The notes beneath the pieces are model-generated. The model had not been told where the DNA came from. It saw only the letters and a program-made list of their open reading frames with translations, and ran no database searches. The position numbers and the translations under genes were made by a program. DNA of 64,000 bases from Salegentibacter lacus (GTDB lineage: Bacteria > Bacteroidota > Bacteroidia > Flavobacteriales > Flavobacteriaceae): the NCBI RefSeq assembly GCF_020164555.1, contig NZ_JAIQZB010000002.1, positions 186,001-250,000 of the forward strand, read 5' to 3'. This document shows, in pieces, positions 4,477 through 33,503 of this stretch (position 1 is the first letter of the stretch; each line of letters opens with the position of its first letter).

Positions 4477-5886
4477 ATGAAACATCTTAGCAAAATTTTA
4501 TTCGCTACAATGTTGGTTCTGGGCATTACTTCGGTATCTGCACAGGATGCTAACAATCCCTGGGCTATAGGGATCCAAACCAACGCGGTAGATTTTCACC
4601 CTACCACTGATGTAGGAGGAACTTTTGATGATTATTTTAACGTTGGAGATCACTGGAATATCTTACCATCTATGTCAAGATTAACAGTAGGCCGTTATAT
4701 TGGCAGCGGTTTTGTATTTGAACTTGCAGGTTCTGTAAATCAAATTGAACAATATGGTGCTGAAAGTGTTCCACAAATGGCATATTATGGTATAGATGGG
4801 TCTTTTAACTATAGCTTAAGAGCTTTACTTAATGATGGATGGCTTGATCCTGTTGTTGGTATTGGTGGTGGTTACACCAGCATTGCTGATAATGGCGATC
4901 ACCCTATTTCAGATCTTGGTGCTGCAACTCTTAACGGTAAATTCGGTTTAAACTTCTGGTTTACAGATAATATTGCTTTAACCCTTGAATCTAACTACAA
5001 ACACGTTTTTGATGTTGATGGTGCTACACACTTTCAACACGCAGGTGGTGTGAAATTTATGTTCGGTGGAACTGACTCTGACGGAGACGGTATCTACGAT
5101 AAAGATGATGAATGTCCAGAAACTCCAGGTTTACCTGAGTTTAACGGATGTCCAGATTCTGACGGTGACGGAATTGAAGACCGTATGGACGCTTGTCCTA
5201 ATGAAGCTGGTTTAGCTGAATTTGACGGATGTCCTGATACCGATGGTGACGGAATTGCTGATCCTAATGATGACTGTCCTGAAGTAGCCGGATTGGCTGA
5301 ACTTAATGGATGTCCTGATGCTGATGGTGACGGTGTTGCCGATAACGAAGATGACTGTCCTAACGAAGCTGGTCCTGCTGAAAACAACGGATGTCCTTAC
5401 GAAGATATGGACAACGATGGCGTTTTAGATAAAGATGATGATTGTCCTGAAGTTGCTGGAACTGCAGCTAACAACGGATGTCCAGAACCAGACGTAGAAG
5501 TTATTTCTGAATTGAACGAATATTCTAAAACTGTGTTGTTCGACTTGAACAAGGCTACTATTAGAGATGATTCAAAAGAAGCTTTAGAGTCTATTGCTGA
5601 AATCATGAACGAATATTCAAATACAATTTTCCATATTGAAGGTCACACAGATAGTACTGGTAGCGCTGAATACAACGAGAAATTATCTCGTGAGCGTGCA
5701 GCTTCTGTTGAATTATGGCTAGAAGAAAATGGTGTGCCAAGCAGCAGATTAACTTCTGAAGGTTATGGTGAAGAAAGACCAATTGCAACTAACAATACGG
5801 CTGCCGGAAGACAGGATAACCGTAGAGTTGAAATTTCTTTAGACAAGAATAAAGAAGTAAAGGATTCTGATTCCTCTATGGAATAA
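4477..5886 (+). CDS. OmpA-family outer-membrane protein with thrombospondin type 3 repeats
   Basis: This 469-residue protein probably anchors the outer membrane to peptidoglycan. It has a signal peptide (about 1-22, ending SVSA before Q), a predicted eight-strand beta barrel (about 24-197), five calcium-binding thrombospondin type 3 repeats of about 27 residues (about 200-337, each with DGDG or DNDG and a CP pair), and a C-terminal OmpA peptidoglycan-binding domain (about 350-455, with IEGHTDSTG and NRRVEI). I chose the ATG at 4477 over an in-frame TTG at 4471, because it starts a normal signal peptide. Strong promoter and terminator motifs flank it, so it is probably a single-gene, highly expressed unit. 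Confidence 0.93.
   Translation: MKHLSKILFATMLVLGITSVSAQDANNPWAIGIQTNAVDFHPTTDVGGTFDDYFNVGDHWNILPSMSRLTVGRYIGSGFVFELAGSVNQIEQYGAESVPQMAYYGIDGSFNYSLRALLNDGWLDPVVGIGGGYTSIADNGDHPISDLGAATLNGKFGLNFWFTDNIALTLESNYKHVFDVDGATHFQHAGGVKFMFGGTDSDGDGIYDKDDECPETPGLPEFNGCPDSDGDGIEDRMDACPNEAGLAEFDGCPDTDGDGIADPNDDCPEVAGLAELNGCPDADGDGVADNEDDCPNEAGPAENNGCPYEDMDNDGVLDKDDDCPEVAGTAANNGCPEPDVEVISELNEYSKTVLFDLNKATIRDDSKEALESIAEIMNEYSNTIFHIEGHTDSTGSAEYNEKLSRERAASVELWLEENGVPSSRLTSEGYGEERPIATNNTAAGRQDNRRVEISLDKNKEVKDSDSSME
5073..5490 (+). repeat. Coding tandem repeat (five thrombospondin type 3 units)
   Basis: Five imperfect units of about 81 bases encode the Asp-rich repeats of the OmpA-like protein, each built on DxDGDG...D..C...G...NGCP. 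Because it is acidic in one strand, it produces long open frames in other frames that are not genes. Confidence 0.85.
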
Positions 5887-27615: not shown

Positions 27616-28713
27616 CTAAAACAAAACCTCATCAATTTTCTTTAAAACACTTTCAGGGGCAATGCTGCGAATAGCATTCTCATAAGTTTCAGGATATTTA
27701 TTTCCATAAACAGAAGTGGGTATTTTTGGATATTGAGTAAGATCAGGGAGTAAGCTGTTACTTTTGGGTTGATTAAAAGGCGCAAAACCGGCATAAGGAT
27801 GTGTCACACCCCAAATGCTAATCACGGGAATACCATACATCGCAGCCATATGGCCGTTGCCGCTGTCCATAGAAAGCATGGCATCAAGGTTGGAAATAAG
27901 GGAGAGTTCTTCGGTTAAAGTCAGTTTTCCGGCAATACTAATCGTGTTTTTAAATTTCGCGGCCCAGGTTTCCAATTGTTGTTTTTCTATATTTCCACCT
28001 CCAAAAAGTAAAACCTTAATTTTTGGGGTTTCACTTAAATTATCTAAAACTTCCTCCATTAAATCTGCCGGATATGCTTTCGAACTATGCTGTGCAAAAG
28101 GTGCAATTCCAAGCCATTTTTTAGGCTCGGTGCCCACCAGGGTTTTAATTTTTTTTGTAATTTTTTCTTTCGGCGGAAATTGGTGGGTATTAAGGTCTAA
28201 AGGATAACCTAAAGCATCAAAAACATCGGCATAGCGCTGTATAGTGGTTTTTAATTGTTTAAACACCTTATTGTTTTCCCTTGTTAAGGCCTTCTTTTCG
28301 CTCCGGCCTTTATCAATTTGTTTCACCGGAATCCCAAACATATAAAAAACCGATTGTAGCACATTGCTTCGTAAAACATCGTGAAGATCGGCTACTTTAT
28401 CAATACCAATATCGCGAAGATCTTTTGCCAGGCGACAAAGACCAACTACGCCACTATGTACCCCTTTAATATCGGCTTTATAAACCGAAACCCCCGGAAT
28501 TCCTTTAAACATAGGTTCAAAAAAACCCCGGGTTAACACTGTAATTTTTAAATGAGGATACGTGGCCGTTAACACCCGCAATACGGGAACGGTCATCGCA
28601 ACATCGCCCATAGCCGATAAACGAATAACCAAAATATGCGAAGCCCCCTCTGCCTGCGGCATCTCTCCCGAATGGGGAGAGTTTCTTTTATTATCAGAGG
28701 TAGGTTTCTTCAT
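27616..28713 (-). CDS. Glycosyltransferase family 9 (heptosyltransferase-like)
   Basis: A 365-residue GT-B enzyme related to ADP-heptose:LPS heptosyltransferases, probably adding a core sugar to lipopolysaccharide at the inner face of the inner membrane. Family features are ILVIRLSAMGDVAMTVPVL near the N-terminus and the C-terminal donor site MLSMDSGNGHMAAMYGIPV. The first 25 or so residues are unusual: they are encoded by a palindromic repeat-like sequence (28644-28682) and precede the point where the family normally begins. It is the last gene of a five-gene minus-strand run and follows DUF4254 by 20 bases, a pairing I associate with Bacteroidota. Confidence 0.85.
   Translation of the reverse strand: MKKPTSDNKRNSPHSGEMPQAEGASHILVIRLSAMGDVAMTVPVLRVLTATYPHLKITVLTRGFFEPMFKGIPGVSVYKADIKGVHSGVVGLCRLAKDLRDIGIDKVADLHDVLRSNVLQSVFYMFGIPVKQIDKGRSEKKALTRENNKVFKQLKTTIQRYADVFDALGYPLDLNTHQFPPKEKITKKIKTLVGTEPKKWLGIAPFAQHSSKAYPADLMEEVLDNLSETPKIKVLLFGGGNIEKQQLETWAAKFKNTISIAGKLTLTEELSLISNLDAMLSMDSGNGHMAAMYGIPVISIWGVTHPYAGFAPFNQPKSNSLLPDLTQYPKIPTSVYGNKYPETYENAIRSIAPESVLKKIDEVLF
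28644..28682. repeat. Palindromic repeat-like element inside the start of a coding region
   Basis: The block contains CTCTCCC with GGGAGAG around GAATG, plus a flanking CCCCTCTGCC/GGCA motif. It codes for residues about 11-25 of the glycosyltransferase (NSPHSGEMPQAEGAS). It resembles mobile-type intergenic palindromes of Bacteroidota and is more GC-rich than its surroundings. Confidence 0.5.
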
Positions 28714-28733: not shown

Positions 28734-29339
28734 CTATTTATTTCTTAATACAGGATTCAACTCATCATCATTATACATCTTCATTTGCCTGTAGACCTTC
28801 ATATACTTGTTTCCGGCGGCAATATCTTCCAGTAATTGATTTATCGCCGTAGAAAGGTCTACGCGCTGCTCCAGTAAAACATCAAGTTTGGCTTTGCACT
28901 TCATTTGGTGCTCTTGCGAAGCATCTTCCCGGTTAGCTTCCTCGTGCATATGGTAAATCTTTAAAGCTAAAATTGAAAGCCTATCTATTGCCCAGGCAGG
29001 ACTTTCAGAATTAATTGTAGCATCATCTTTTGGCTGAATATCTTTAAATTTCTTTAAAAAATAACTATCAATATATTCCACGGTATCGGTTCGATCCTGG
29101 TTTGAAGCGTCTATCTGGCGTTTTAGCGCCAGGGCATCTACGGGATCTATATGTTTATCGCGTATAATATCTTCATAATGCCACTGCACCGTGTCTATCC
29201 AACATTTGCGGTACAACAAATGCTCTATCAATTCACTTTCGCTATCGTAAGGGTTGGAAAATGGCTGCTCTACCGTATCTTTTTCATGATATCTCTCTAT
29301 TACTTCCTGAAAAATCTTATTCGCTTTATCTGAAAACAT
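28734..29339 (-). CDS. DUF4254 family protein
   Basis: A 201-residue, mostly helical soluble protein recognised as DUF4254. Conserved-looking stretches include LLYRKCWIDTVQWHYEDIIRD and ESPAWAIDRLSILALKIYHM. It is found beside family 9 glycosyltransferases in Bacteroidota, which suggests a role in LPS core assembly, but no biochemical function is known to me. It begins 3 bases after the adenine methylase gene. Confidence 0.82.
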   Translation of the reverse strand: MFSDKANKIFQEVIERYHEKDTVEQPFSNPYDSESELIEHLLYRKCWIDTVQWHYEDIIRDKHIDPVDALALKRQIDASNQDRTDTVEYIDSYFLKKFKDIQPKDDATINSESPAWAIDRLSILALKIYHMHEEANREDASQEHQMKCKAKLDVLLEQRVDLSTAINQLLEDIAAGNKYMKVYRQMKMYNDDELNPVLRNK

Positions 29340-29342
29340 AAA

Positions 29343-30341
29343 CTATCTTTTTTCTAAAATGTGTAAATATTCTGTAGTATGATTGGCCGTATGGTTTCGG
29401 TTTTCGGTTTTATCGGCTTTAAAACGCTGGTATTTTTTGGTAACCAGGTCGTAATTTCCAAAACGGCTCATTATTTTTTTTATTTCTCCAGAAGGCATTA
29501 AACCCTCGTTGTTATAGCTGAAAAATATATACCTGAAATTAGCATTTTCGAGCAATTCCAGAAAGGAATTTTCAACCTTTCCCCGGCTGCAGTAATTGGA
29601 GCGATAATAATCGCGCAGGCCGGTTTTTCCCTGTGGTGCAAAGGTATCATATTTTGCGATGGTATTTAAAATATGGTAGTTCGCACCGTACTGCCGTGCA
29701 TTGTAAGGCGGATCTAAATATAAAATATCGCCTTCAATTTCTTTAATTAATTGATTTGCATCTTTTTGAAAAACCTTGTGTGAATTCCCTGTGAACTCAA
29801 ATTTTGCAGGTTTTAATTCTAAATCTTTTTGTGCCGAAAGTTTTACTTTTTTTAAAAATGCACCATAAACCGAAGCAGTATTGGCAATTTTGTCTGCACT
29901 TTCCAATAAAGAAGCTAAAAGGAAAAAATACTGGTTTTCCCCTATATGTTTATTCAGTTTCCAATTTTCTATTTGCTGTCTTATCGCATCAATTTTCTTT
30001 CCGTTGGTTTCAGAAAAATAGAGTCGGTTAGATTTGCCGTTTTCACTGTATTCTTCGAAAATAAAACCGGGTTTTTTTTCGAGATTATTTAATAACGTAA
30101 GAAGATTCTCAGTGTCTAATTTTTGATGATTTTCAATATAATTTTTGAGTAAAATATAGCTGTAATATTCCACATCGTTAGCGATAACAGATTTCACCGA
30201 AGTCTTAAAATTCCTACCGACACTCCCCGTACCGGCAAAAAGATCGCAAAAAACCATTTGAGAAAGATCTTTGCCAACCACTTCTTTTACCGTAGATTTT
30301 ATAAAATCGCCAAGCTTATGTTTAGAACCTATATAATTCAT
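29343..30341 (-). CDS. D12-class DNA N6-adenine methyltransferase
   Basis: A 332-residue methyltransferase transferring a methyl group from SAM to adenine N6 in a specific, unknown DNA site. Motif X is YIGSKHKL (3-10), motif I DLFAGTGSVG (33-42), an acidic ND (55-56) follows, and motif IV is DPPY (210-213) extended by NARQYGANYH. The segment between motifs I and IV is the target-recognition region. Its ATG overlaps the stop of the upstream endonuclease-like gene by 4 bases, so the two are translationally coupled, as in compact restriction-modification pairs. The genes on both sides are conserved housekeeping-type genes in the same direction. Confidence 0.9.
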   Translation of the reverse strand: MNYIGSKHKLGDFIKSTVKEVVGKDLSQMVFCDLFAGTGSVGRNFKTSVKSVIANDVEYYSYILLKNYIENHQKLDTENLLTLLNNLEKKPGFIFEEYSENGKSNRLYFSETNGKKIDAIRQQIENWKLNKHIGENQYFFLLASLLESADKIANTASVYGAFLKKVKLSAQKDLELKPAKFEFTGNSHKVFQKDANQLIKEIEGDILYLDPPYNARQYGANYHILNTIAKYDTFAPQGKTGLRDYYRSNYCSRGKVENSFLELLENANFRYIFFSYNNEGLMPSGEIKKIMSRFGNYDLVTKKYQRFKADKTENRNHTANHTTEYLHILEKR

Positions 30342-30973
30342 TTTACCGCCCAGATCACATCAGCTAAAGTGGTTCTTCCTTGCTGAAATTGGAATTCTTT
30401 TAGTTGTGAATTTTCAAAAGTAGCAACATATTTTTCAATCACCTGCTTCAAAAAAGAAATTTCGGCTTTTAGCTTCCAATGCTGTCCATCTTCAGCATAA
30501 ACTATTAAGAACAATCGATTTTCCAGATGAAACCGGCTTTGTTTACTTTGATTTTTATACAACCAGGTAATAAGGCTTTCAGGATTATTTTGAGCAAATT
30601 CAAGGGAACGATTAAACGTCTTTGGAAAAACACTTGTTTTTAAATCGAAGTCATTTCCGAAGAAATTAAAGTCAATCTTCCGGTTTTTGGGATTTTTATT
30701 CGGAACGACTTCTTTCATCTCAGCAAAGATGTGTTCTACCGCCATCGCACTCCAGAAGTTATACCAGCGATTGCTGCAATACTGAAAAAACTCTTTTTCA
30801 TCCAACTTTTCAGTTGCGATAATTAAGGCAATTTGTTGGTTTAACCGATCCCAGCTTGAAGTAAAATAAACAAAAGAAGAAACCCTGTCCCAGGAATTAT
30901 TTTGCTTCCGAAACCAACGATATTCATATTGGCAGCGTTGTTTAAGTTCGTTCTCAATTGCCGGTAAATTCAT
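30338..30973 (-). CDS. Unrecognised protein with PD-(D/E)XK-like motif, candidate restriction endonuclease
   Basis: I do not recognise a family for this 211-residue protein. It is rich in aromatic residues and lysine, has no signal peptide or membrane helix, and contains RKIDFNFFGNDFDLKTSVF (about 98-116). In this, D101, D110 and K112 fit the D...(D/E)-x-K active site of many type II endonucleases, with E80 or E85 as a possible helix glutamate. It overlaps the adenine methylase gene by 4 bases and starts one base after DUF6427. The nuclease call is inference from the motif and coupling; a specificity or accessory protein is the main alternative. Confidence 0.5.
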   Translation of the reverse strand: MNLPAIENELKQRCQYEYRWFRKQNNSWDRVSSFVYFTSSWDRLNQQIALIIATEKLDEKEFFQYCSNRWYNFWSAMAVEHIFAEMKEVVPNKNPKNRKIDFNFFGNDFDLKTSVFPKTFNRSLEFAQNNPESLITWLYKNQSKQSRFHLENRLFLIVYAEDGQHWKLKAEISFLKQVIEKYVATFENSQLKEFQFQQGRTTLADVIWAVK

Positions 30974-30974
30974 C

Positions 30975-31898
30975 TTAGAAAATAAAAGGAATACACAAAG
31001 GCATTAAGATAAGCAATACTAGCAAAACTTCCCTAAAGACTTTATCCTCCCTTTGATCAAAATAAATAGAGGTAACAATACTTAGCGGTACAAAGAAGAA
31101 AATAAGTTCGCTGCCGTCTTTAGTAGGTGCAAAAATAGCTGCGGCAACAGCCGTAAGCAAACTGAGTAAAACCAGATTCAACGAAGGTTTCATAGATACG
31201 CTTGCTTTATTTACTACGGCTAAAAATTGAACCAATGTCCAAAGCGTTAAGGCTAAAATAATACTAAGGGGAATAAGCATTTCGAGATTTTGATAATTTG
31301 AATAATCAAAATTACTCCACTCAAACCATTGTGAAAACGTATAAAATTGATCGTAAGTGATAATATGAAAACTAAGCGTTAAAACTGCTACCGCTAAAGC
31401 TGCTATTGGCGGAATTAACCAGTTTTTAGGTTTTGGGAGATAGTATAAAATACCGGCATAAACCACGACAAGGAACAAAATAGACCAGAAATAAAAAAGC
31501 GAGGCGATACATATCCAAAAAGTAGCATCAAAAACTTTTTTTTGCATTACTTTTTTAGACTTTAAGCTAATAATCCTTCTAAAAGCAAACAGCACCAGTA
31601 AATTGGCAAATATCACCTGGTGATTTCTTAAAAGTGTAAAAAATGAAGCCGTGAAAATAACAAAAAACAAGATTTTATAAGCGCTACGCCGGGTAAGCTC
31701 ATTTTTCTTGGCTATAAAATTGAGGGTAAAAACACTTACTACAAGACTTAATAAAACCGCCAGTTTTTCCAGGAAAACCAGTAGATTAAAATCTATAAAC
31801 CACTCCTTAAAATTGGCGATAATAAAAAATGTGATCAAAAAAATAGTGATCGCTACCCCGTTCACCGGTTTTGATTTGCCAAAAAAGCTTGTTAGCAT
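30975..31898 (-). CDS. DUF6427 family multi-pass membrane protein
   Basis: A 307-residue inner-membrane protein with about 9-10 hydrophobic helices and short loops. The N-terminus MLTSFFGKSKPVNGVAITIF is typical of the flavobacterial DUF6427 family, whose function is unknown. It is divergent from the small DUF6341-like membrane protein, a neighbour with which it commonly occurs. It leads the operon containing the endonuclease-like and methylase genes. Confidence 0.78.
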   Translation of the reverse strand: MLTSFFGKSKPVNGVAITIFLITFFIIANFKEWFIDFNLLVFLEKLAVLLSLVVSVFTLNFIAKKNELTRRSAYKILFFVIFTASFFTLLRNHQVIFANLLVLFAFRRIISLKSKKVMQKKVFDATFWICIASLFYFWSILFLVVVYAGILYYLPKPKNWLIPPIAALAVAVLTLSFHIITYDQFYTFSQWFEWSNFDYSNYQNLEMLIPLSIILALTLWTLVQFLAVVNKASVSMKPSLNLVLLSLLTAVAAAIFAPTKDGSELIFFFVPLSIVTSIYFDQREDKVFREVLLVLLILMPLCIPFIF

Positions 31899-32006: not shown

Positions 32007-32237
32007 ATGAAAGATTTTTTTGAAGGTATTGCCTACTTGTTTGAAGAGATATTATTCTATCCGTTTGATCTACTTAGGGATTTGGAATTAGACTCATGGT
32101 GGGCTGCAAATGCCTTAAATTTTATTTTTATCCTGGTTGGTTTAGCTGCTTTTATTTATTGGATGAAACAACTTAAGCACTACAACAAACTTAACGATGA
32201 AGATCGTGATCCTACGGCCCACTCGTTTTTAGGATAA
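32007..32237 (+). CDS. Small membrane protein, DUF6341-like
   Basis: A 76-residue protein with an amphipathic N-terminal half ([28 protein letters not shown]) and one membrane helix (about 36-54), then a charged C-terminus ending AHSFLG. The pattern matches a small flavobacterial family, DUF6341, with unknown function. Its last 9 bases overlap the 3' end of purD on the other strand. Such proteins have sometimes been mislabelled as uracil phosphoribosyltransferase; nothing in the sequence supports that. Confidence 0.75.
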
Positions 32238-33503
32238 ATCAAAACCTAGATCTTTTCTATAATACATCTTATCGAAATGTAGTTTTTCTGCATTTTGATA
32301 AGATTTTTTTAATGCCTCTTTGTAATCTTTCCCAAACGAAGTCACGGCAATTACACGGCCACCACTAGTTACAATTTTATCGCCTTCAAATTTGGTTCCT
32401 GCGTGAAATACTATTGAGTCTTCAACTTTGTCAAATCCGGTGATTTCTTTAGATTTTTCGTAAGCTTCAGGATAACCACCAGATACCAACATTACCGTAG
32501 TTGCAGCGCGGTCATCTATTTCTAATGAAACTTCATTTAATTTTCCCTCGGAAACTTTTTCAAAAATTTCTACAAGATCTGATTTGATTCGGGGAAGCAC
32601 AACCTCGGTCTCCGGATCACCCATACGCACATTATACTCTATTACGTAAGGTTCGTTTTTCACCATAATAAGTCCGATAAAAATAAACCCTTTGTAATCT
32701 ATATCTTCTTCCTGCAACCCATTAACCGTTGGTTTTGCGATGCGTTCTTCAATTTTCTGCATTAATTGATCATCTACAAATGGAACGGGAGAAATAGCGC
32801 CCATCCCGCCGGTATTTAGCCCAGTGTCTCCTTCACCAATTCGTTTGTAATCTTTGGCGGTGGGCAGGATCTTATAATTTTTTCCGTCGGTCAATACAAA
32901 AACGCTAAGCTCAATCCCATCTAAAAATTCTTCTATCACAACTTTGGCACTTGCAGCACCAAATTTCTTTTCAGCCAGCATATTTTGTAATTCCTGTTTA
33001 GCCTCTTCAAGATTGTCTATAATTAAAACTCCCTTTCCGGCAGCAAGCCCATCGGCCTTTAAAACATATGGCGGATTTAATGTCTCCAGAAATTCCTTTC
33101 CTGCTTCCAGACTTTTTTCAGTAAAACTTTCGTAAGCCGCGGTAGGTATTTTATGCATCGCCATAAATTCTTTGGCGCGCTCTTTACTTCCTTCCAAAAG
33201 CGCCCCACGTTTTGAGGGTCCTATAACTTTTACATTTTTTAGTGCATCATCTTCTGCAAAAAAATCGGTGATACCTTCTACCAAAGGATCTTCAGGGCCT
33301 ACTACCAGCATTTCAATTTTTTCCTTCAGCACAAAATCTTTAATCGCTTTAAAATCGGTTACTTTAAGGTCGATATTCTCAGCAATTTCTGCGGTTCCCG
33401 CGTTACCGGGCGCTACAAAAAGTTTAGAACATTTTGGGCTTTGAGCCAATTTGTAAGCGAATGTATGTTCGCGTCCGCCGGCACCGAGAATTAAAATTTT
33501 CAT
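32229..33503 (-). CDS. purD: Phosphoribosylamine-glycine ligase
   Basis: This ATP-grasp ligase joins phosphoribosylamine and glycine in step 2 of purine synthesis. It has 424 residues, as expected. Recognisable parts are the N-terminal [18 protein letters not shown], the ATP-grasp segments [14 protein letters not shown] and [17 protein letters not shown], and the metal-binding [17 protein letters not shown]. It is a single gene with its own promoter and overlaps a small membrane protein gene tail to tail by 9 bases. Confidence 0.95.

Follow-up and report, generated by a model that had tools for sequence, protein, structure and literature searches.

The window, a 64,000-nucleotide stretch of a Salegentibacter lacus contig (NZ_JAIQZB010000002.1, positions 186,001 to 250,000), carries two overlapping genes between housekeeping genes; all of the window features described below lie on the minus strand. 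The first gene, R (30338-30973), encodes a protein of 211 aa that was assigned as a putative Type II restriction endonuclease of the PD-(D/E)XK type from its open reading frame, a family alignment (A3), and an AlphaFold2 model. The second gene, M1 (29343-30341), encodes a D12-class adenine methylase of 332 aa, which was recognized by PF02086, PADLOC, and the neighbors of its relatives as HpyIM/NlaIII-like with CATG as the predicted target. The original prediction placed D101, D110, and K112 of the 211-aa protein in IDFNFFGNDFDLKTS, and the translation of the open reading frame confirmed this. The putative catalytic motif of R, D-x8-D-x-K from D101 to K112 (DFNFFGNDFDLK), is encoded at 30638-30673, and a conserved acidic residue, E80, at 30734-30736. 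The methylase class was also correctly predicted (Pfam MethyltransfD12, E 7e-51). The SAM-binding motif FAGTGSVG is located at 30216-30239 and the catalytic motif DPPY at 29703-29714; F35, A36, G37, T38, G39, and V41 of the former and D210-Y213 of the latter were invariant in 19 sequences.

The stop codon of R and the start codon of M1 share four bases in an ATGA-type overlap (30338-30341), as originally described, and a 4-base overlap recurs in 44 of the 67 loci of relatives that carry both genes. Based on this anatomy, R and M1 are probably translationally coupled. A search for promoter patterns gave matches at the chance level (6 versus 5.31 expected). Upstream, R is separated by one base from the gene for a DUF6427 protein (30975-31898; Pfam E 4e-7), while three bases separate M1 from the downstream gene for a DUF4254 protein (28734-29339; Pfam E 1e-64); both gaps agree with the original prediction. 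Together with these two genes, a PurD-like protein (32229-33503) and a 365-aa glycosyltransferase-like protein (27616-28713), both named by eye from their open reading frames, served as synteny markers of the site.

A pattern scan identified 207 R relatives encoded in GTDB contigs, and the best 80 of these loci, which come from at most 79 genomes (a single MAG holds both L118 and L119), were kept for analysis. Alignment A3 was constructed after the exclusion of L102 and L136, which have broken R frames, from 81 loci. D101, D110, and K112 were identical in all 80 aligned sequences of these best relatives, beyond what chance would give, and E80 was present in 78; the remaining two, both from one MAG, have Q at this position. 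The AlphaFold2 model of R, based on 80 sequences, had a pLDDT of 93.3 and a pTM of 0.89. Its elements follow in the order of a long helix (59-84), which carries E80 and precedes the sheet, strands 89-91, 102-104, and 107-115, a helix (131-140), and a strand (153-159). The core of PD-(D/E)XK nucleases is defined by the order alpha-beta-beta-beta-alpha-beta, with catalytic residues placed on strands two and three. The predicted core of R has this topology: D101 immediately precedes strand two, and strand three carries D110 and K112.

Fold searches were performed with the whole model and with a core model of residues 57-211 (pLDDT 91.4). For both models, Foldseek returned no matches at E <= 0.001 and VIA-align none at Z of 5 or more. 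The best VIA-align match of the core model was CdiA-CT (4g6u; Z 4.3 over 94 residues at 4.5 A), followed by Can2 (3.8), McrBC chain M (3.6), MGME1 (3.1), DpnI (2.8), and EcoO109I (2.5). Approximately 40 of the 50 rows for the core model, all with Z of 4.3 or lower and with many repeats of PA and MGME1, are what we take to be PD-(D/E)XK proteins (CdiA-CT, Can2, McrC, influenza and Thogoto PA, MGME1, DpnI, EcoO109I, and others). The remaining rows, including the NhoI and Eco15I domains, are not PD-(D/E)XK proteins. PNPase, which had the best Z with the whole model (4.8), was not used because its match is helical and covers residues 21-81 of R. The matches of the predicted core are weak and point one way, to PD-(D/E)XK, and the model suggests that R likely has this fold. 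The structural check of the nuclease assignment yielded the predicted core topology, but not a significant match to a solved member.

R had zero matches up to E 1 in Pfam, including PF05315 (the ICEA/NlaIII endonuclease family), in NCBIfam, and in PADLOC; the best E was 0.52 in PHROGs and 0.31 in PDB sequences, in which phmmer and profile searches gave nothing usable. A match to PF05315 was also absent from the genome of the window (G000). The original prediction called the pair a candidate for a new one. The R family is new in the sense that it is absent from Pfam, NCBIfam, PADLOC, PHROGs, and the PDB sequences, and the claim of novelty is limited to those collections. The parts of the literature that were available on CATG enzymes, FatI, iceA/hpyIM, flavobacterial CATG methylomes, and Salegentibacter restriction-modification contained no account of this family.

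One R relative was found in IMG/VR, none in the phage collection, and one, a distant relative, in the plasmid collection. Two distant groups were recognized: R' (277 aa; L338 and L339) and R'' (285-287 aa; L189, L342, and L343). Profile comparisons linked R to R' (98.9%, E 2.7e-17) and to R'' (94.5%, E 7.7e-8), and the D..D-x-K region was aligned in both. The plasmid-borne relative is a 240-aa protein of Priestia megaterium plasmid pFDU301A (L182:3920-4639 (+)), which retains the D..D-x-K region and weakly matches RE_MjaI (E 0.046). R', R'', and the Priestia protein lacked credible matches in Pfam and PADLOC, with best Pfam E values of 0.14, 0.0082, and 0.0014, respectively. M1 and M2, the second methylase described below, were both absent from this plasmid, to which the search was confined.

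M1 matched the PADLOC model MTase_II PDLC03257 along its entire length (450.7 bits) and scored 18.8 bits with the NCBIfam Dam-family model, for which the cut-off is 114.85. R relatives are accompanied either by M1 or by M2, a PF01555 methylase with the motif MHPPY; the profiles of M1 and M2 were unmatched (3.5% probability). Among the best 80 of the 207 R loci, 66 have M1 in the locus and nine have only M2; "in the locus" means within about 4 kb of R and not always adjacent, and M1 or M2 was so placed in 75. For the other five (L103, L153, L154, L159, and L178), M1 or M2 is encoded at another place in the genome, and, thus, none of the best 80 GTDB loci comes from a genome with R and without either methylase. 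We rejected the view that R occurs without a methylase outside flavobacteria: the 350-aa neighbor is a PF01555 methylase, and the genomes of the other loci encode M1 or M2 at a different position. In 299 Flavobacteriaceae genomes, R was found in 26, M1 in 25, and both in 25 (hypergeometric p 1.5e-35). M1 was full-length (E < 1e-150) in 24 of these and truncated at the end of a contig in one, and all 25 have R, which in G304 is the distant R''; seven further M1 hits were fragments or weaker matches. The sole R without M1 or M2 in these genomes is a distant relative in G347, and M2 was found in one of the 299. The distant relatives in G347 and on the Priestia plasmid are exceptions to the pairing of R with a methylase. 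As far as tested, the predicted fold is not one unrelated to nucleases, and R relatives are not consistently devoid of the methylase and of the D/D/K residues; the reading as a restriction-modification pair is supported.

Both methylases occur together with R in the mixed loci M2-R-M1 (L160) and M2-R-ICEA-M1 (L162), and M2 and ICEA remnants flank R ahead of M1 in L196. The distant groups have the same partners: R' is beside M2 (L338 and L339), and R'' is beside M1 (L189), beside M2 (L343), or between M2 and M1 (L342). Several other arrangements were observed. G139 (L198) has R at the usual site without M1, and the M1 of this genome is about 31 kb away. In three Aequorivita loci (L110, L111, and L127), two small genes that by eye are toxin-antitoxin-like lie between R and M1 (approximately 4730-5421). 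L138 and L151 have a second restriction-modification-like set in this position, which by eye consists of an XRE-like regulator, a C5-methylase-like protein, and another protein; L132 has a shortened version. G008 has two further M1 copies (L084 3154-4152 (-) and L085 3821-4816 (+)), each beside a protein of 472-478 aa, and the copy in L084 matches the PADLOC model REase_II PDLC03458. These 472-478 aa neighbors may represent a third type of nuclease that pairs with the M1 family.

Relatives of M1 adjoin Pfam ICEA nucleases in G002 (L077) and L162. In the 299 family genomes, ICEA was above the cut-off in two, G002 and G266, both of which have R and M1; the ICEA of G266 is a remnant of approximately 30 codons. 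In G002 (L077:1558-5206 (+)), M1 and ICEA are preceded by a short methylase of the M2 type and by a protein of 382 aa with a weak PDDEXK_4 match (E 5e-4), and this genome thus carries two M1 sets and one M2. A phage relative of M1 with 46% identity is annotated as 'ulcer associated adenine specific DNA', and others with 35% identity as 'ulcer associated adenine specific DNA methyltransferase'. According to one report, hpyIM recognizes CATG and M.HpyI is the partner of IceAI (PMC4450513). As an independent test, we compared the observed counts of the 16 four-base palindromes with their Markov expectations, using 20 or 100 kb of each genome. The controls were chosen for the absence of R and M1. 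Across the 19 genomes that have R and M1, the observed/expected ratio of CATG averaged 0.43, as against 0.80 across the 25 controls (p 1.3e-6), a comparison between related genomes in which several controls per genus are possible. The ratio was below 0.65 in 18/19 and 3/25, respectively. The difference persisted when each genus contributed a single R genome (15 versus 25, p 7.3e-6) and after the removal of G304 and G037 (p 2.7e-6); these retests used rounded ratios. TCGA was also lower with R and M1 (0.76 versus 0.92, p 1e-3), and TGCA differed slightly (p 0.01).

Three genomes were kept out of the two-group test: G011 (0.52, broken M1), G014 (0.43, R stub), and G354, which has R with M1 elsewhere and is listed apart with a CATG ratio of 0.29. 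Exceptions were found in both groups, with G266 at 0.68 despite R, and G037, G067, and G030 at 0.03, 0.44, and 0.55 without R and M1. G304 (R'', L305) and G037 (L332) are of the same genus, and CATG (0.02 and 0.03) and GATC (0.10 and 0.02) are both nearly absent from them; M1 was not found in G037 despite this CATG ratio. In genomes with R and M2 (n=5, 9-20 kb each), the depletion was weaker, with a mean CATG ratio of 0.60 (p 0.026). When the 67 R loci outside the M2 set were pooled, CATG had a ratio of 0.41 (529 observed versus 1305 expected), the lowest of the 16 palindromes. In 11 pooled M2-type R loci, it was second-lowest after CTAG (0.64). From the ICEA neighbors of its relatives, the annotation name, and the depletion of CATG, we infer that M1 methylates the adenine of CATG. 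Since R and M1 co-occur so tightly, the depletion is not assignable to R alone.

The original prediction also proposed that DUF6427 and DUF4254 are closer neighbors in relatives and that the pair was inserted into an ancestral operon. In G001, G002, G021, and G026, the two genes are separated by 113-150 bases that contain neither R nor M1, and these empty sites support the insertion. It appears to be old rather than recent because the pair is on site in many genera. Sixty-three of the best 80 R loci are at the PurD-DUF6427/DUF4254 site, in genera including Aequorivita, Mesonia, Aquimarina, Leeuwenhoekiella, Dokdonia, and Gillisia. The 17 loci off the site are from Ignavibacteria, Chloroflexi, Bacteroidetes, Chlorobiota, Neomarinimicrobiota, Thiothrix, and others. 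In a tree of the joined R and M1 proteins (76 rows), 67 on-site rows clustered against nine off-site rows, largely following genera. The on-site label required two changes, which is still compatible with a single origin, versus a mean of 8.6 after shuffling, and none of 500 shuffles was as low, a result to which near-copies contribute. The distances of R and M1 tracked those of PurD and DUF4254 in 52 loci (Spearman 0.50-0.62, 0/999 permutations; 0.66 for PurD versus DUF4254). L101 and L118 were excluded from this test as copies, and L114 and L130 were also excluded, though uncopied in the set. Judging from these sequence comparisons, the simplest reading is vertical descent with many losses; alternatively, the pair may have been transferred together with its flanks.

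The states of R and M1 were read in the genome of the window and 14 listed genomes of the same genus. Both genes are intact on site in G000, G005, and G009. M1 is intact beside a broken R in G003, G008, and G010 (DUF4254 was not found in G010) and beside a 3' stub of R of approximately 34-43 codons in G012, G013, and G014, while G006 has M1 alone. G004 and G011 have a broken M1 and no R. In G001 and G002, the site is empty and the pair is elsewhere, with R broken in G001. G007 (61% complete) has M1, and DUF4254 and R were not found in it. M1 was thus intact in seven Salegentibacter genomes in which R is broken, a stub, or gone. It was broken in 2 of the 14 same-genus genomes, so the methylase is not always spared. 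This pattern fits an order of events in which R would be lost first and M1 later. Among other members of the family, the slot has neither gene in G021 and G026. In G020, G028, and G031 (L098, L099, and L100), the slot is occupied by an unrelated gene of approximately 220-260 aa, uracil-phosphoribosyltransferase-like by eye, on the strand opposite to DUF6427.

Several other explanations were considered. The pair may recognize a site other than CATG, with the depletion inherited or caused by other systems. Three of the 25 genomes without R and M1 also have ratios below 0.65, TCGA differs as well, and the genomes are related; however, CATG stands out among the 16 palindromes, both in the two-group test and in the pooled loci, and IceA/NlaIII-type nucleases share loci with M1 and R. 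We consider another recognition site to be unlikely. That R instead assists the methylase, as a subunit for specificity or control in which D/D/K is retained for some other purpose, appears highly improbable. The absence of a significant fold match agrees with a helper, but R also has the unrelated M2 as a partner, which is not expected of a subunit of M1, and M1 stays intact where R has been lost. Furthermore, the invariant D/D/K residues are on the expected strands of the model, and depletion of CATG is not expected from methylation alone. A much stronger candidate is that R is a diverged homologue of a sequenced CATG enzyme (FatI, CviAII, or UpaP162 of Ureaplasma), known in REBASE and absent from Pfam, NCBIfam, and PADLOC. 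FatI cuts /CATG (PMC6449724), and UpaP162 is reported to cut CATG and had no homologue in the BLAST searches of its authors (PMC6191088). Moreover, the silence of PADLOC on R says little because PADLOC also misses the IceA-type nuclease. We regard such a homologue as a serious possibility, somewhat short of an even chance.

The position of the pair may also be explained by repeated transfers into the slot rather than one old insertion. R is patchy (26 of 299 family genomes), the label in the tree needs two changes rather than one, and G001 and G002 hold R and M1 elsewhere. However, the clustering of the 67 on-site rows against nine off-site rows, unmatched in 500 shuffles even if helped by near-copies, and the agreement of R and M1 distances with those of PurD and DUF4254 make repeated transfers improbable.

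Therefore, we return to the preferred reading: R and M1 very probably constitute a Type II restriction-modification system that cuts CATG, in which a PD-(D/E)XK-type enzyme replaces the NlaIII-type enzyme, and which is an old resident of this operon. In the proposed mechanism, M1 would methylate the adenine in CATG and R would cut unmethylated CATG through a metal-dependent PD-(D/E)XK site formed by E80, D101, D110, and K112. Phage or plasmid DNA that enters the cell unmethylated would be cut, while the host chromosome would be safe; the pair would function in defense against phages. The two proteins would be translated together through the ATGA overlap. The pair may have entered the slot between DUF6427 and DUF4254 early in the history of Flavobacteriaceae, and may then have been inherited there and lost many times. 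Decay would begin with R, leaving the methylase as an orphan, because R is dangerous without the methylase whereas the methylase is harmless without R.

A broader proposal, to which we give slightly less than an even chance, is that R founds an undescribed PD-(D/E)XK-type superfamily comprising R, R', and R''. This superfamily would have converged on CATG by a route separate from that of NlaIII, an HNH enzyme, would have swapped between two CATG methylases that are unrelated to each other, and would have shared loci with an NlaIII-type nuclease (M2-R-ICEA-M1 and M2-R''-M1); throughout a bacterial family, one lineage would have been held at one operon slot long enough to deplete CATG from its hosts. 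If the present reading is true, the known restriction enzymes gain a family that is missed by the domain libraries searched and that has a predicted target, and the pairing of a single endonuclease family with two unrelated methylases offers a natural test of how closely specificities need to match. The Salegentibacter series, from the intact pair through broken R, R stub, methylase alone, and broken methylase to the empty site, may be considered a stepwise record of the death of a restriction-modification system. Long residence in one operon slot is unusual for genes that are normally thought to be mobile.

Known systems resemble this pair in different respects. The EcoRV, DpnII, and MboI systems use D12 methylases, and M1 is of the same class (PF02086). 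In contrast to these systems, M1 is far under the Dam-model cut-off and R is without a Pfam match. R shares the predicted core topology and the D..D-x-K residues with PD-(D/E)XK Type II enzymes in general; however, the fold matches, EcoO109I, Ecl18kI, and DpnI among them, are weak (Z 2.5 to 3.6), and a sequence relation was not found. FatI is from Flavobacterium aquatile, a flavobacterium, and CviAII is a chlorovirus enzyme that cuts C/ATG. R would share CATG recognition with FatI (/CATG), CviAII (C/ATG), and UpaP162 (CA/TG) if the predicted target is right. Isoschizomers with different cut positions are treated as different enzymes in one source (PMC4081073). The pair is similar to NlaIII and IceA1-HpyIM in the kind of adenine methylase, whose relatives adjoin ICEA in G002 and L162, and presumably in its CATG target. 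NlaIII is an HNH-class nuclease. In contrast, R does not belong to the ICEA family, and its putative D-x8-D-x-K core takes the place of the HNH-type site.
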